From Thuidium tamariscinum (taxonomy: Eukaryota; Streptophyta; Bryopsida; Hypnales; Thuidiaceae): a stretch of DNA of 64,000 nucleotides. Shown piece by piece: positions 15,535 to 62,076 of the stretch. How positions within the stretch are numbered: the first letter of the stretch is position 1; each line of letters opens with the position of its first letter. The notes beneath the pieces are model-generated. The model was not told the origin of the DNA and did no database searches. It worked only from the letters and a program-made list of their open reading frames with translations. Position numbers and translations under genes: made by a program. The stretch covers positions 10,536,098 through 10,600,097 of the forward strand of contig OX344756.2 of the NCBI GenBank assembly GCA_947034885.2, written 5' to 3'.

Positions 15535-18321
15535 TCAGCAATAAAACAGGGAATAATCTGATCCTATTGCCAAATTTAGAAGAACTTGGATTGTTGATTG
15601 TGGACCTTTCCCTCCTCCACTAGACCTTACTGAGGATGCGGTGTCGGATTCTCCTGAGTTGTTGGCCAAGATCCTGTATCGTTTGGCAGCAAGATGGGCA
15701 TAAGCTACTGGTGTCGCTATGGAAATCGATTTGGAGCAACGGCCAAACGTGTAACACAGATTGTTGGTGATACTTTGAATATCATCAGGAGTGAACTTGT
15801 GACTCCCATTCACTAGCACATGGTAGTGAGTAGGGCGAGATGTTCCAATGAGGCCTGCTTGGCTAACAAGGAAGAAGTCGTAGTAGTGGGGATGACAGAT
15901 GTCTCTATCCACCACTATACCAGGAATAACGTTTCCATTCCTCAAAGCATCATGGCCTTGAGGAAGGATTCGTGTATTGTGTCGCTTTTGAGCAACAATG
16001 AAGGTGATTCCTGGATTATATCCAAGTTCAAGATCTTCGCATGCACTTCGGAATGCAGTCACTTCTTTCTCTAAGCATTCAGCAAATTGGCTTTCACCTA
16101 GTCCATCTCTGTAGACAATGATTTGATCAGGTTTTGGATTGCAACTGCTAGAGCATGTCTTGTAGTACTCAAAGAGCAATTCCTTGACCATCCCACGAAG
16201 ATCCTCAATCATCTCCATCTTTGCAGGCTGCATCCTTGCTCGTGTTGCGTATTGAAAGACATTGGGCCAATTCTTCGTTGCCACCACTGCTGCAATAGAA
16301 GGGATATCCTCTCCAGGCGAGCCATGGGAAACATCCATCCCAAAGATGATGGTAGATGGCCAAAGACACTCGGTCATTTTGCGTGATAAAAGGCAATTGA
16401 GCCCACCCATCTTTAGATTGATCTTTAAAGCTAGATTTCCCAAGAACTGCCGATTGAGGGGGCCATGGCGAGGCCTCATACATTGAGTAACAACTCCAAC
16501 TTGAATCTCACACATCCGCTTGAATGCTTCATAAACGCTGTTGGAATCGTCTGAAGACATTATAGCTAAGATGAAGACAGGCTTGATCTCCCGAAACTTG
16601 GAAAGCATCAATTGGACACGTTTCTCAGGTGAATTGTTTCGTTCATGTGGTTGCTCTTTCTTTACCATTTGTGGCTCCTTCATTCTCAGTCCTTGACGTT
16701 GGCAACACTCCATCAACTGAATTCCAATGCGATCCCCATCATACGTGCGATCATCGAATATAGCCACAACCCAAGGATCGATCTCAACTCCCTCAAGCAT
16801 CTTATTGCCAAAGTTCCAACTACCCTCTAATGGTACCTCAGTCCTTCCATTTCCAAATTGAAGTTGAGGAGGAGGTAGTATTCTTCCTGAAACATCAGAT
16901 AGCTTATCATCAAAAACTAGACCAAATTCTCTAATCATCTTGTCCGAATTGTAATTGTTGATCTTCATTGCATTTTCATATAAATGTTGCCTCTCTCTAG
17001 GATTTTGCTTACAAGCACCAATCATATTGTTCTTCTGCTTTGAAGTCAAGGGCTTCATGTATCGTTGTCCAGCAATGATCTTGCCCAATTCTAGAGGGAC
17101 AAAAATAGGCTTCTTTTTGTTTCCAACATCTAGTGCAGGAAGGTCCAAATACTTCAATGTATACATGTATTTGTCCTTAAAGTAGTCACGTATTGACACT
17201 TCATGTTCTCGTACATTGCCCTCATTATCTTTGATCTTCATATTAAATCTCAACTCTCGGATCGCCTTGTCACTGAATCCTGAAATTTTATATGTTTGTG
17301 ACACTTGATCACCTCTGGTCTCAATCCTGATACCTTTTAGGATACCTTTTGCTTTATCCCAATCTCTATTCTACAATTGCCTTAGGTCTTGCACACGGAA
17401 CTTTTCCTTGAGAAACTCTTCTACATAGATAGGCTTCAGAACGGTTGCCATAGTTATATCAAGATTGAGAGTCGTCCCCAACCCAGTTGGTTTCACGCTA
17501 GCATGATAACCTCTCCAACCGTGAACTCCTTCACCCAAGTCACAAATTGGGCCCAAGTGAGGATGGAAAAAATTGTCTCGCACAAGAAGATAGCCTCTTT
17601 GTGAAGCATTCTCTCGAAGTACAATGTCCAAAACACGAAACGCATCCGAGGCTCGTTTCTCCAACTCTTCATTGCATGTGCTCGTGGTTGCCTTCATCAT
17701 CTCGGCAATTGCTGACATGCCAATCTTTGAAACAAACGTGATTGTAACGATATAATCTCTTCCCCTTGACATAGTCTTCCTCTTCTTTCTACCAGCATCC
17801 TCTCCTGCACTACTACCTCGAGGTTTCTGTGTGGATGAATTATAACTACCACTATGTCTACCACGGTCTCCATCATCATTGGGTTTAGATGAAGAACCTT
17901 TAGCATTTTCCATGAAGACAGGAAGCTCCATTGAGGTGAAATTCAAGCTCCCACTTGTGTACAATGACTGGTCTCCATCATAGGCTCCTTGGTGTCCACG
18001 CCACTCCACAGCGCTATACGTCTCACGAACCTTCTTCATGATTTCACGGCGATAGGATTTGGATGCCACTGGTGGATTGATCATTACATTGTAGTGATAC
18101 ACTTCATCTTGCTTCACCAACTGGACTGGGAAGTAGTTCACGTACAAATTCGTGGGTCGGCCTAGTTTTCCAAACCCTGGTCGGGTGGCCTTTGAAGGCA
18201 CTAAGGCTACACTCGTGTTTCCATAGACTGAAACATGGGTTGGCAAGGTTCCGGGAAGGATGGGTGGAGGAGGTGGAAGAGCCTCATAAAGACTACTATA
18301 CTCTGATATAAGCTTAGCCAT
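15535..18321 (-). pseudogene. Intronless AGO4/6/9-clade ARGONAUTE, full length but with one in-frame TAG
   Basis: One reading frame spans 928 codons (AGO4 is about 924), with no intron and no frameshift. It is interrupted only by TAG at codon 317 (17371-17373). The order is a Pro-rich N-terminus, N domain, a basic Ser/Gly-rich linker, PAZ, MID and PIWI. Counting the stop as a residue, the PIWI catalytic Asp-Asp-His residues fall at 663 (GMDVSHG), 739 (YRDGLGESQ) and 832 (RPTHYHVL), and the C-terminus is LFYC. AGO4-clade proteins bind 24-nt siRNAs in RNA-directed DNA methylation; that is family knowledge. AGO4 genes in flowering plants have many introns, so this is probably an old retrocopy. 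The intact 611 codons after the stop suggest a recent nonsense change, an assembly or sequencing error, or readthrough. The codon after the stop does not fit the known CARYYA leaky context. A 316-residue truncated protein would lack MID and PIWI. Confidence 0.9.
17371..17373 (-). other. In-frame TAG interrupting the AGO-like gene
   Basis: The local codons are CAA TTG TAG AAT AGA GAT TGG. The 22 codons between the stop and the next GTG continue the same frame and align with the conserved D-W-x-K-A-K block that follows the AGO4 PAZ start. A single base change could therefore account for the break. Confidence 0.92.
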
Positions 18322-18790
18322 AGCTAAATGACACTACAAAATCTCTATTGTAGAGATCACCAACAAAAGTAAGTCTTTATTGGGCAAGAAAACTGAAATC
18401 CTTCACCCTAGAAATCAAAAAGTAGATTGAATAAGATGATGCTTACAATGAGATTCTAACTTTGATCAATACCTTCCCAATAAATTATTATCTAGAAAAT
18501 ATGAAATGAAAATATAGAATAAAATACTAATTAGTTAATGGCATTTTGACATCAATCCAAAAGTTGTCAAACATAATAACATGTACAATGTCTAAACACA
18601 TATAAGGTGAGCTATCTTTCACTCTACAAAAGGAATATCCAAAAGTGCAAATGGAAGAGAAAATAAAGTTTTACTAAAAGGTAAATACCATAGTTAAACA
18701 AACTTTAACAACAAACTATCTCTCTGTCAAAACACCTACAAGACTCAACTTGCCAACAAGAAAGAATGCCAAGTCAAGGGAGCCTCAAAG

Positions 18791-51508: not shown

Positions 51509-54500
51509 ATGGGGATTCAGGGGTTGCTTCCCACCCTGAAATCCATCATGAACCCGCGTCACGTACGTGACTATGCAGGGAAGCGGGCGGCCGTCGACAC
51601 CTATTCTTGGCTTCACAAGGCTGCTTTCAGCTGCAGCAAAGACATATGTCTGGGGCTGCCTAATGACAGGTGAGCACACTCAAGTGGCACTATCTCCGGG
51701 GTATAGATGGGCTTCTAAACGCACTCTCACGTGTTCACAACTGGACCTGTGGAAATTGGCCAATCACATGTGCTCAGAGCAGGACAGATTCCGAGGGTAT
51801 ACTAGGAATATGCAATTACAGAACCTGTCATTATAGAGGGTTGAGTGTGCTTGGATATCTAGCAGCACAAAGAAATGCTACATCCTACATTAAGCTTGAT
51901 GAGATTCGGCATGGGGACACCATTCGTTTTGTTAGGTTTGTGTTGAAGTTTCTGAAAGCTTGATTGGTCGATAAGGATGTGTGTGGCTTGTGGAACACGT
52001 AATGACACATGCAGTTGTGTGTGATGCGTTAGGTATATACACTACTGCATGCATCGAGTCAATATGTTGCGACACTACGGTGTGGAACCCGTTCTAGTGT
52101 TTGATGGGGGTGGCCTTCCTATGAAGTCTGATCAAGAAATCAAACGTGCCAGGTATTTTGCATACTATCGTTTCTAGCTACCTTGAAAGTAGGAGTACTT
52201 TTATCTCTTACCGATGAACGGATTGCCGCTGGTGAGGATGGACATTAGGTAGAGGATACCACTTGCGTCACTTAAGTATTTTAATTAGTGTGTAGGAGTG
52301 TGATGATTGGGAGATCGGTACAGAGCTGCAGAGGGGTCACTGTGGGCACAAGAACCTAACTCTCGTAAGACAATTTTTTTATCAGTATGAGTGGATTTCC
52401 CATAAAACTATAAAGTGGGAGGTCTAGACCACTAGTAGTGTCATTAGACAACCCCATTTATATTCAAAGACTAGTGGCCATAGACATTTAGTCATTTGCT
52501 TACAAGTGCAACCGAGTATTTGAGTAGATGAGGTTCTGTTGGTAACTGGGGTAAGTGTTGGAGGCGGGATCAAGTCTATTAACGATTGGTGCCCTCTATC
52601 GTAGCAGATCAAATAATCTGTGCTTCTTAAACTTGAGGCCGATCTAATTCCGTTCGGCTGTATAACTCTGAGACAGATCGAGGAAGGAAAATTTAGACCG
52701 TGCCCTGGAACATGAGCGTTTGGGAAATCAATCCGCTGCTTATGAGTGCTTCCAGAAGGCTGTAGATATAACTCCTGCAATCGCTTTCAGATTGATCAAG
52801 GTACAAGTGCGTTGTTGCATTTTAGCGCTTCTGTTGTTTGTGTACAAGAATCGGACGTTGTTTCTACTTTATAGTTCACGTGCTGCGTCTAGGTTGACTA
52901 TATCTTCTCGACGTCTGAAATATATAGTCCTATCTCGTAATTTCTGAACAGGTATTGCGGCAGGAGAACGTGGATTATGTTGTGGCTCCGTATGAAGCAG
53001 ACGCTCAGATGGCTTTTCTAGCTCGCAATGGACACGTGGATCTTGTTATTACAGAGGACTCTGACCTAATTGCATACGGTTGTCCACAGGTAGAGTTCAC
53101 AGGAAATGACCTAACCTTGAGATTGCTCTCAAAGATTATCTTCTCGTATGTAGATATTTGGTCTTAGACGCGAGTGATTTAATAACTCGAATTTGAAGGA
53201 CCTGAGAATAATGAAATAAACTGTTTCCTAGGCAAGCAGACTTCATAATGTAGACAAAGGCCCCAAGTATGTTTTTTATGATTGAATTGATAAGACTTGC
53301 TTCAATGACAAAAATTACGTTTGTGGCAGATTCTTTATAAGATGGACAAATATGGGCAAGGTGTCGGATTTCAATACACCGACATTACGGCCAACAAAGA
53401 TCTCGACTTCAACAATTTCTCCAAACAGATGATTCTGGAAATGTGCATAATGAGTGGTTGTGATTACTTATCTTCGTTGCCAGGAATGGGTGTGAAAAAA
53501 GCTCATGGCTTGATTAAGCGTTTCAAGACCTATCAGAAGGTCGCTACATTATGACTTCACATTACCGACTCACCATTTTTGTTCTCTAGTATCGTCGAGC
53601 AATCTTCTATACGTAAGGAACTCTTTAAACTCTAAGCTCAACGATCTATTGTAAAATTCTCCTGCCTGTTTACAATGGATCGTTGAATTGAGAGTTGAGG
53701 AGCCCCTTACGTAAAGAACTGGAGTAGCTATCCGTTCAGTGATCTTTTGAATTGCGTCATGGTTACTTTCGGTCTCACTTCTGTCGATAATTTGCTGTGA
53801 CTTGAATATGGGTGCAGGTAATCAAGCACTTAAAGTTTAGTGGCGTTCTCATAGATAAACAATATGAGCAAGGCTTTCAGAGAGCTATTTTGACATTTCA
53901 GCATCATCGTGTTTACGATCCTGCAAATGGGGAGATGATTTACCTTACCAGTTTACCGAGCGACCTTGACACTGACCTAGATTTTTTGGGACCATATCCT
54001 TCCTTTTATGCCCATTTGGTAACAATTGCTTTGGAAAAGGACGTCATTGCTTCTGAATGCTAAGTAACTCTATGAATTTACATTGTATCTGCATAGATCT
54101 AGATCTCGTTATGTGCCTTTCGCCATACTCCAGCGCCAGTAGACTTCACTACATTCATATCAAGCATTGTGCACTTAACTCTTTCTTACATATGTACCCC
54201 CGACTGTTGCCATTGCTATTGCCAGAGGTGAGGTGGACCCAACCACCTATGAGCCCTTTGAGGTATAGTTTCTTATCATCGTGCTCAATAATCTTTGAAA
54301 TTTTTAGTGTGAGAAGTGCTGGTTCCTGATGTTTATGGCGGTTGTGTTTCAGGACATGAGTAGCTCAGAGATGCTGGGTACAGCTTCGAAAGCAAAAGTG
54401 CTTAGAAGCTCTCCGAATATGGAAGCGGAGCTTTCTCCTCCGATTACTGCGCTAATTACTAACTTCTTCCGTATCCACCAGAAATATTCAGACACTAGGC

Positions 54501-57296
54501 ATTTCGTAGACTTATCTCACGAATAGCTGATCCTGTGCATTTTCGGGTCTTCTTTGTTTGCTTTTGCGAGAGAGTGATACAATCTCTCACCTAAATTCTG
54601 GGCATGGAGTTGCTTACCTTTTTGTCATGATGTGTAAGGTGATGCCCCGGTAGGACCCTTAGTTTTCCAAGCTTGGCATACATATGTGCAGTCCACATCT
54701 GAAAACTAACACATGTCCGTAGATACTCCGGAATGTTTAGCATTATACTGTCTACCGTGTTCAGTAAAAAGGAATTGTGTTATATGTACTTAACTTTCTT
54801 CAGAGGGACCAGGAGAATCTACGAAGAAGCAGTTTAGGTGGCCGAGGAATGCACCCGAGAGCGCATCGTTGCTTTCCCAATGGAGCCAAGAGGAGACGGC
54901 ATCCCAATTCACCCCTTCACCAACTATCACCAGTCAAACCTATTCGAGTCCATTCAGCAAATTTTCTTTTACTTCTCAGCATTCACCAGTATTTGGGACT
55001 CCTCCAAGTCAAATATCTCCCTTTGTGAGTGAGGATCTGGACTTGGATGAAGGGTTGCCCAGGATCATTGTAAGTACATCAACTGAGATGTTCTGCTACC
55101 AGTTGTTCTGCCAGAGTGTTCTACTACCAGTTGGAAAAGTAGCGTTCTCTTTGCAGGCGTTTACTAATTATTTGGTGCACACAGGATCTCACGTCTGATT
55201 ATCCTCCACCTGAACAGCCCCTCATGAGAACACACAGCTTTTCAGGTGGACTACTCGTGTCTTTGCCAAACCTTTTTGTTTTTTGTTGCATCTTCATGTC
55301 TTTCTAAGCACAGGTATTCGACTTGGGTGCTCTTCTTGGAGAATGGTGATGGTCCAGGAGTTGACTTACATGTTCTTGTGCTCGGGCTTCTCACTGGGTC
55401 TTCTGCATTTGCAGAGGAGAAGCAGAAGAATGAGAGTCCTTTCTATTCCCGGACAACGCCAAACCTTGTCGATTCGAAGGCTTCGAAGACATCTGTCTCT
55501 TCTCGAGTGCAGAAGGCTGCTGCTCAACTTACCAGTGCTATGCAGTTGCGTGATGAAGCCACCTGCCTCGGTGGTCCGAGGAAAAGAAGTGCATATTTCT
55601 CTCAAACTTCACCACCGCCATCGCACCCAAGCAGTACTGGGGTGAGCCCAGAAGTCGATCACAAGAGGAACGTCGATTTGCTGGACATTTCTGAAGGTTC
55701 CTTGCCTAATATTCACCCAGAGACTCCGGTTTCTAAAGAGGTTGAAATCAAATGCAACACTCAGCGCTTCAATGATGTTCAAAATTGTCCAGATGTGAAT
55801 AAGGTACTTGCGAAGATCTATGCATGGTTCAAATTTTTTGAACCTTACACTGCCTGAGTGGGATTTTGTTGCAAGTAGATATTCATTCCCGAGGGGTTGA
55901 TGCTCTCATATTTATTGTGGATTAAGCATGATAGTGTGGACTCTGACTGCCCAATCACCTCTCACATGCAGGAGATCCTGAAGGATATTACGAACAAAGG
56001 AAAAACGCATGCAATTATTGTTGGAAAGAGTAAGTGTCAGTGGTTCCCTTGTCAATTGGTTAAGCAAATACTCTCTGTCGTTTTCAACCATTTTAATTGG
56101 AAACCCGAATATCATCTGGTAGGGGATGATAGTGATCACCAGTTGTTTGTGTTTGGGATCTAGACTTTGAATGTGCCTTTCTCTGACTATTAATATGCTC
56201 TTTGTCTGTCAGGGAAGCATGTCCCGCATTTCAGAAGTGATCTACTAGGAGAGAGACCGACGAAAAGCAGAACTTTCTCGTCTGTATCACATGTGGGTGA
56301 ATATGGTGGCCTTGCTCAACGATCCATGGATGACTTCGTTTCAACTCTCGCTCCGTTTCGATCCTCACAGCGCGGCTCTGGTGCCAGTGGTTCAGTGGCT
56401 CCTTCAAAGCAAGGAACTCGAGCCAGTGGTCTGAGAGCACCCTCGAAATCTGCTGGCAAGGCTTCCTCGTCTAGGTGATTCCGCAGAGTGTGTACTCATT
56501 GTGATTTGCTGCTATGTTTTTGAGGTTATATTCTTTTCCATGTCACTTATTCCTAGATGCATTCATTCGAAAATGAATATTTTAGTAAGCAGAGTTTACC
56601 ATTTCATTGGTTGCTTCATCCTTAGGCCCTAGCAAGTAGCTCGAATTAGCTAGTTGGTGCCTTGAGGCCTGCTCTCCACCTGGAAGTTACTTAAATTCCG
56701 CTATGCCCGCAGTTGCTAATAGATTTAGAGTTTTCATATTGCTAGTTACTGCTACTTGGTTAGTGCGAGCGACGCTAGCACTTCAAAACCATTGACATAG
56801 TCTTTATTAGTTTCCTTTTCCGAAGTTGGGAGCTAAGTGATGGAAATGAATGTAAATCCAGCGCTCGTTGTTCAGTGGGGATTAGTTTCAATTTGTCAGT
56901 GATAGTGCTTTGACATTGCGGGCACCGAGTTAGCTACTTGATTGGTGCAGTCGGGACCTTGATTTGCATCCTGTAATTTGCCTCAACCTGGCCTGGATCA
57001 TTTCACTTCTTGACTTGGTTTGGGCTGAAAGAAGATGGACGATTGATTCCCTGCGTAGGAATGGGTGTATCATGCTCAAGAAAGTATTTGTCCTCATCTT
57101 ACCTATTTTCAGTCCCCCGTTGTCTATTGAATGTGACTACAGGACCGTCACTACAGGATTAACCAAGAAAATTAGCGACTTCGTTTGCTCATCGCCAGTC
57201 AACACGCGAAGACTGACTTTTCCTGAGACGACTTCGGCTGCTGCTGGTGCTATGAGGTGGCAAGTTTACAACGAGGCCGACTGGGAAAAAGCATAA
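51509..57296 (+). CDS. EXO1: Exonuclease 1 (EXO1), XPG/RAD2 family, 14 exons
   Basis: Modelled exons: 51509-51669, 52033-52152, 52677-52800, 52952-53089, 53330-53539, 53818-53993, 54190-54262, 54353-54470, 54804-55069, 55185-55245, 55415-55803, 55972-56029, 56213-56474 and 57143-57296. All are in phase, giving 769 residues. The N-domain starts MGIQGLLP. The metal-binding acids of the family are present: D30, D78, E150, D152, D171, D173 and D226. The XPG-I and helix-hairpin ([13 protein letters not shown]) regions follow. The C-terminal half is Ser/Pro-rich and disordered-looking, with two PCNA-box-like motifs, QRSMDDFV (667-674) and TKKISDFV in the last exon. EXO1 resects DNA 5' to 3' in mismatch repair and recombination; that is family knowledge. 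An unspliced exon 13 would stop at 56478, giving 719 residues. A GGGLP where others have GGPLP is the only odd residue near the active site. Introns 6 and 8 look U12-type. Confidence 0.92.
53994..54189 (+). other. U12-type AT-AC intron in EXO1 (intron 6)
   Basis: The intron begins ATATCCTT, the exact minor-spliceosome AT-AC donor, and ends TTAC. A CTTAAC branch motif lies with its A 11 bases before the end. No GT-AG alternative restores the frame. Removing the 196 bases joins FLGP to [17 protein letters not shown], as expected for the EXO1 family. Confidence 0.85.
54471..54803 (+). other. Probable U12-type GT-AG intron in EXO1 (intron 8)
   Basis: The donor is GTATCCAC (six of the eight consensus bases GTATCCTT). 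The branch TACTTAAC lies 10 bases before the CAG acceptor and fits the U12 branch at seven of eight positions. The phase-1 junction joins ITNFF to [17 protein letters not shown] standard U2 intron is still possible. Confidence 0.6.
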
Positions 57297-61560: not shown

Positions 61561-61925
61561 ATAGAAAGTGCATCAAATGTTTTTTCAAATCGCTTGAATG
61601 TATTTTTACTAAATAGGATTGCACTTTCTGTCATTATGGTATTATTGACTTTGTTAAAGGTGAAGATGCTCAATTCACAAATCATCCTTGTATAATTGTG
61701 TATTTTGGGGGCTTCTTGATATTTATTTTTATGTGAATTTTTGACATAGGAATGATATTCTTTTGAATTTGAGTCCAACTAATAAAATAAATTTTGTCTA
61801 TTCCAATTGGAAAATTTGAAAAAATATTGAAGTTCAATTATTACAATATGAAAAATGGGCACACTATGGTTTGTTGATTGAGAATTTGAGAATGACATGA
61901 TAACTTTGGTTTAGACCACAATATT

Positions 61926-62076
61926 GTGGGGTTCCAATCAAAATATTGATAGTGGGGTTTAAGGGTTTAGGGTTGATTGGAACCCCACAATATTGCGGAT
62001 TTCCAAACGCCATTGTTGATTGGAACCCCACAACTCATTGGTTTAGACCACAATATTGATAGTGGGGTTCCAATCA
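61926..62076. repeat. Cluster of four GTGGGGTTCCAATCA motifs in both orientations
   Basis: The 15-base motif stands at 61926-61940 (plus), 61974-61988 (minus), 62017-62031 (minus) and 62062-62076 (plus). A fifth, slightly changed, at 63424-63438 (minus) closes the foldback element to the right. A GTTTAGACCACAATATTG block is repeated beside the first and last of the left cluster. This looks like stacked termini of one transposon family. Confidence 0.8.

Follow-up and report, generated by a model that had tools for sequence, protein, structure and literature searches.

The EXO1 gene and its surroundings

The window, by which we mean the whole 64-kb stretch of Thuidium tamariscinum DNA that was analysed, carries on its forward strand a gene whose coding part extends from 51509 to 57296 and which, judged by its predicted protein, is EXO1. 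The G+C content is 35.7%, which, like the Argonaute and tify-domain genes described below, is in keeping with a land plant and perhaps a moss. The gene model was assembled manually on the basis of open frames and splice signals, and its 14 exons encode 769 amino acids with no frameshift and no internal stop. When residues 1-462 were compared with the PDB, chains of human EXO1 gave the best matches (E 3e-82 to 5e-81, with matched residues 1 to 338-340), while FEN1 ranked behind them (E from 1.4e-21). The full 769-residue protein contains both an XPG_N and an XPG_I domain, and within the XPG/Rad2 nuclease family it is nearer to EXO1 than to FEN1, XPG or GEN1, so that the name EXO1 given to the gene in an earlier sequence-only reading of this DNA is borne out. 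A search for EXO1 relatives in two non-plant collections returned 6 pattern matches in viral contigs and 14 in genome contigs, none of which was confirmed when checked with tblastn.

The part of the gene that concerns us here comprises exon 6 (53818-53993), which ends on base 2 of the P310 codon, exon 7 (54190-54262), exon 8 (54353-54470, flanked by introns 7 and 8) and, in the same hand-built model, exon 9 (54804-55069), all on the forward strand. Intron 7 is an ordinary GT-AG intron of 90 nt. Intron 5 (window position 53540, forward strand) has an unusual donor in the hand-built model, AAG/GTCGCT, where the slash, as elsewhere in this text, marks the boundary between exon and intron.

Two other features of the window deserve mention. 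On the reverse strand, an Argonaute coding frame at 15535-18333 encodes ArgoN and ArgoL1 followed by PAZ, ArgoL2 and Piwi; it has no visible introns and carries one internal TAG (17371-17373), and it may represent either a retrocopy or a gene that is broken. A strong hairpin lies on the forward strand at 61910-62006 (MFE -44 kcal/mol, z -6.8, with 0 of 200 shuffles as good, in a scan of 19000-64000). It gives a sub-threshold match to MIR171_1 (37 bits against a gathering threshold of 48, E 0.0021), and within it we found no site with three or fewer mismatches to the miR171 core. The hairpin might represent the precursor of a diverged miRNA gene or an inverted repeat of recent origin.

The junction between exons 6 and 7

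Exons 6 and 7 are separated by intron 6, 196 nt in phase 2 at 53994-54189 on the forward strand, where the sequence can be read directly as ...GGACC/ATATCCTTCCTTTT...GTGCACTTAACTCTTTCTTAC/ATATGTACC, exon 7 thus starting with ATATGTACC. In the PDB comparison, the protein joined in this way aligns with human EXO1 without a gap across the exon 6/7 junction. To place this junction among its competitors, we kept constant where exon 6 starts and where exon 7 ends and enumerated the introns that keep the frame open, limiting these to lengths of at least 60 nt, to donors no less than 60 nt into exon 6 and to five classes of terminal dinucleotides. There are 82 of these (33 AT-AC, 21 AT-AG, 13 GC-AG, 8 GT-AG and 7 GT-AC), and when they were scored against human EXO1 the intron at 53994-54189 ranked first with a score of 113, followed by a score of 99 for the next. 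Among the best 15 of the 82, the remaining AT-AC pairs add or drop residues, and none of them scores above 99.

Shifting the junction by -1 to +4 gives six placements with identical mRNA, because the bases CATAT are present at both ends of the intron. The AT-AC form occurs at shift 0 only, and at none of the six does the intron become GT-AG or GC-AG. RNA reads can therefore confirm the mRNA and cannot pick among the six placements, which the U12 signals do. The sequence-only reading had held that this splicing alone restores the conserved protein block in phase; the restoration itself is supported by the first rank among 82 (113 against 99), whereas the exclusivity must be relaxed to a set of six placements with the same mRNA.

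The simplest competing explanation is that a conventional GT-AG intron of the U2 type nearby is the real one and that the AT-AC signals are coincidental. Eight GT-AG introns do keep the frame open, but the best of them scores only 77 against 113, loses a block of 14 residues that aligns with human EXO1, and has a poor donor (GAC/GTCATTGCT), so that we consider this explanation very improbable.

The splice signals are those of a U12-type intron with two blemishes. The donor, ATATCCTT at 53994-54001, is the sole occurrence of that sequence on the forward strand of the window and agrees exactly with RTATCCTT, the rule for the U12 5' splice site quoted in a passage of PMC2846911. The donor matches the U12 consensus RTATCCTTT at 8/9 positions and the U2 consensus at 3/9, and its earlier description as an exact U12 AT-AC donor can be kept. 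The branch site was also correctly located at CTTAAC (54174-54179), where the core is perfect and the putative branch A, at 54178, precedes the final base of the intron by 11 nt; over the full nine bases of TTCCTTRAC, however, the match is only 6/9 (GCACTTAAC), and this we count against the U12 reading. The intron ends in TTAC, as had been noted, and among its six equivalent placements this is the one with terminal AT and AC. Within the 13 introns of EXO1, a start of RTATCC is found in introns 6 and 8 only, and the same two are the only ones in which CTTRAC places its branch A 9-13 nt from the end. Phase 2 is in line with the tendency of minor introns to avoid phase 0 that is described in an excerpt from PMC10639083.

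The second blemish is that the 3' end of intron 6 is rich in pyrimidines (13/17 at positions -20 to -4), more so than in any other of the gene's 13 introns, and the intron thus departs from the statement in a passage of PMC5932401 that U12 introns are without a polypyrimidine tract. This does not overrule the U12 assignment, because the tract is not a defining feature in donor-plus-branch classifiers, at least as these are presented in the relevant passage of PMC7367187. The same pyrimidines would suit an alternative in which the intron, despite its AT-AC ends, is spliced out by the major (U2) spliceosome; such introns form a rare class, the existence of which is stated in a portion of PMC6310983. 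Against this stand the donor (3/9 for U2, 8/9 for U12) and CTTAAC 11 nt from the end, which is a U12 arrangement, and we would give this alternative very little chance. Still less probable is that EXO1 is broken at this point, as a pseudogene or through an assembly error, with no such intron spliced: the odd donor of intron 5 (AAG/GTCGCT) would be in keeping with a broken gene, but 14 exons yield 769 amino acids without a frameshift or stop, and the interruption bears matched U12 signals.

How much weight the motifs can bear was judged by chance expectation. The combination of ATATCCTT, CTTAAC and AC was observed twice on the two strands of the 64 kb, against a mean of 0.28 in 100 simulations from a first-order Markov model (rather than exact shuffles), of which 2/100 had two or more. 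Only 3 of 12002 AT dinucleotides start ATATCCTT, and CTTAAC placed so that its branch A lies 9-13 nt before the end accompanies 7 of 6421 AC dinucleotides. Taken by itself, the combination is thus moderately rare only, and not extraordinary in 64 kb; the case for intron 6 is convincing because the combination coincides with the junction that homology requires. The second match to ATATCCTT...CTTAAC...AC, at 30684-29996 on the reverse strand (689 nt), may be due to chance, and its presence was counted against the U12 reading.

Taking these observations together, we consider it very highly probable, on the sequence as read, that the EXO1 gene is intact and that its segment 53994-54189 is an AT-AC intron of the U12 (minor-spliceosome) type, and we infer that the minor spliceosome is used for its removal. 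In minor splicing, U11 and U12 recognise the donor and the branch site, and U4atac/U6atac-U5 finish the splicing reaction. At intron 6, the U11/U12 di-snRNP would bind ATATCCTT, with U12 pairing with CTTAAC, and U6atac would then take over the donor from U11. The attack on 53994 would come from the branch A at 54178, and with the AC at 54188-54189 as acceptor, C53993 would be joined to A54190 inside the P310 codon.

If intron 6 were retained, the frame would stop 22 codons past P310, suggesting that full-length EXO1 depends on minor splicing. Skipping of exon 7, or of exons 7 and 8 together, leads to early stops as well, and full-length EXO1 would therefore need this minor splicing to be correct. 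It is also reasonable to expect, as was proposed from the letters of the sequence, that gene finders allowing only GT-AG would mis-model the pair of exons 6 and 7. Recognition of intron 6 mends a gene model that such prediction would be expected to break, and it does so within a conserved stretch of a DNA-repair nuclease.

Further candidate U12-like introns in the window

Intron 8 of EXO1 (54471-54803, forward strand, phase 1), a GT-AG intron reading TCC/GTATCCACC...GTACTTAACTTTCTTCAG/AGG, is a candidate for a second, weaker U12-like intron of the gene, to judge from its donor start and branch site, and one on which the sequence-only reading is silent. The donor, GTATCCAC, agrees with RTATCCTT in its first six bases and departs from it at +7 and +8, so that the complete rule does not hold. 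It matches the U12 consensus at 6/9 positions, against 7/9 for intron 7, which is without a U12 branch, and it is a poor U2 donor (3/9). The branch site, with CTTAAC at 54789-54794, is GTACTTAAC, a 7/9 match lying 10 nt from the end as expected of a U12 branch; branch matches of 7/9 are found in introns 4 and 12 too, but at 21 and 26 nt. Simple consensus counts thus do not single out intron 8, while a start of RTATCC combined with CTTRAC at 9-13 nt does, along with intron 6. In the window, 12 of 6421 GT dinucleotides start GTATCC, and 26 of 7180 AG dinucleotides have CTTRAC at 9-13 nt.

The placement of intron 8 has no wobble. Twenty-six GT-AG choices keep the frame open there, which counts against the candidate. 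The one chosen shares the top score with one AT-AG form when compared with an approximate segment of Arabidopsis EXO1, a result that we take as a lead only. The idea that introns 6 and 8 are copies of one another was rejected, as their local alignment score of 11 was reached by 455 of 500 shuffles (shuffled mean 12.9).

A further candidate lies elsewhere in the window, on the reverse strand, in a gene encoding a tify domain, a domain that is specific to plants. This putative U12-type GT-AG intron (24553-24312) is located inside the tify domain and reads, after ...NVCDNVPADK, AAG/GTATCCTTA...TTTCTTGACTTGCTACAG/ARLIMMYAEKAG... Joining across it raises the tify match from 45.2 to 55.2 bits. The donor matches the U12 consensus at 8/9 positions and the branch, 10 nt from the end, also at 8/9; to the U2 consensus, the same donor has a fit of 6/9.

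Comparison with known minor introns

The rarity of AT-AC introns, asserted in the sequence-only reading, agrees with a count in one section of PMC6310983, where AT-AC makes up 0.06% of splice-site combinations in 121 plant genomes. As a share of U12-type introns, AT-AC accounts for 26% in A. thaliana in one database, according to a passage of PMC7367187, and for 4.8% by another count quoted in a passage of PMC5932401. That passage also refers to 124 U12 introns analysed previously in P. patens. None of the titles and abstract openings found in the open-licence literature concerned a U12 intron in a plant EXO1, and such an intron may well have been listed earlier in a supplement or a U12 database. 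EXO1 is absent from the main texts of PMC6865273 and PMC6717393, and the three passages of PMC12475092 that deal with U12 concern ZRSR2, none of these three saying that EXO1 has a minor intron.

The closest plant parallel is the U12-type AT-AC intron of CBP20, which an excerpt of PMC5932401 reports in 10 of 10 land plants compared, including liverworts and mosses. The CBP20 intron and EXO1 intron 6 are alike in having AT-AC ends and a U12 branch site and in splitting a conserved coding part from a less conserved tail. They differ in gene and position, and the splicing of the CBP20 intron was tested in constructs, while that of EXO1 intron 6 is predicted. U12 introns have been found to cluster within genes, significantly so in 21 of 21 genomes tested, as stated in a passage of PMC7367187; introns 6 and 8 of EXO1 would be a multi-U12-intron pair of the kind described there, with intron 8 as a weak-donor candidate.

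In mammals, EXO1 itself has been linked to minor splicing. Mouse Exo1 is one of the candidate genes whose U12 introns are affected in embryos mutant for Zrsr1/2 (in a passage of PMC7312986) and is called a minor-intron gene in a passage of PMC13192996, and human EXO1 is in a shortlist of genes with U12-type introns in the portion of PMC7612377 that bears on it. The mammalian gene and the one described here are the same, each with a minor-class intron, a predicted one in the present case; these mammalian passages give neither the position nor the terminal bases of the intron. It is conceivable, although we think it rather unlikely, that intron 6 lies at the same codon and in the same phase as the mammalian EXO1 minor intron and has been kept since before the split of plants and animals, and that exons 7-8 lie between two minor-type introns (6 and 8), so that the activity of the minor spliceosome controls whether full-length EXO1, C-terminal tail included, is made. 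Should the positions match, EXO1 would offer a tractable example both of a minor intron that plants and animals have retained and of a repair capacity coupled to minor splicing. Intron 6 belongs to a well-known kind, and mammalian EXO1 has already been named as a minor-intron gene; to that gene, intron 6 adds a probable plant case.
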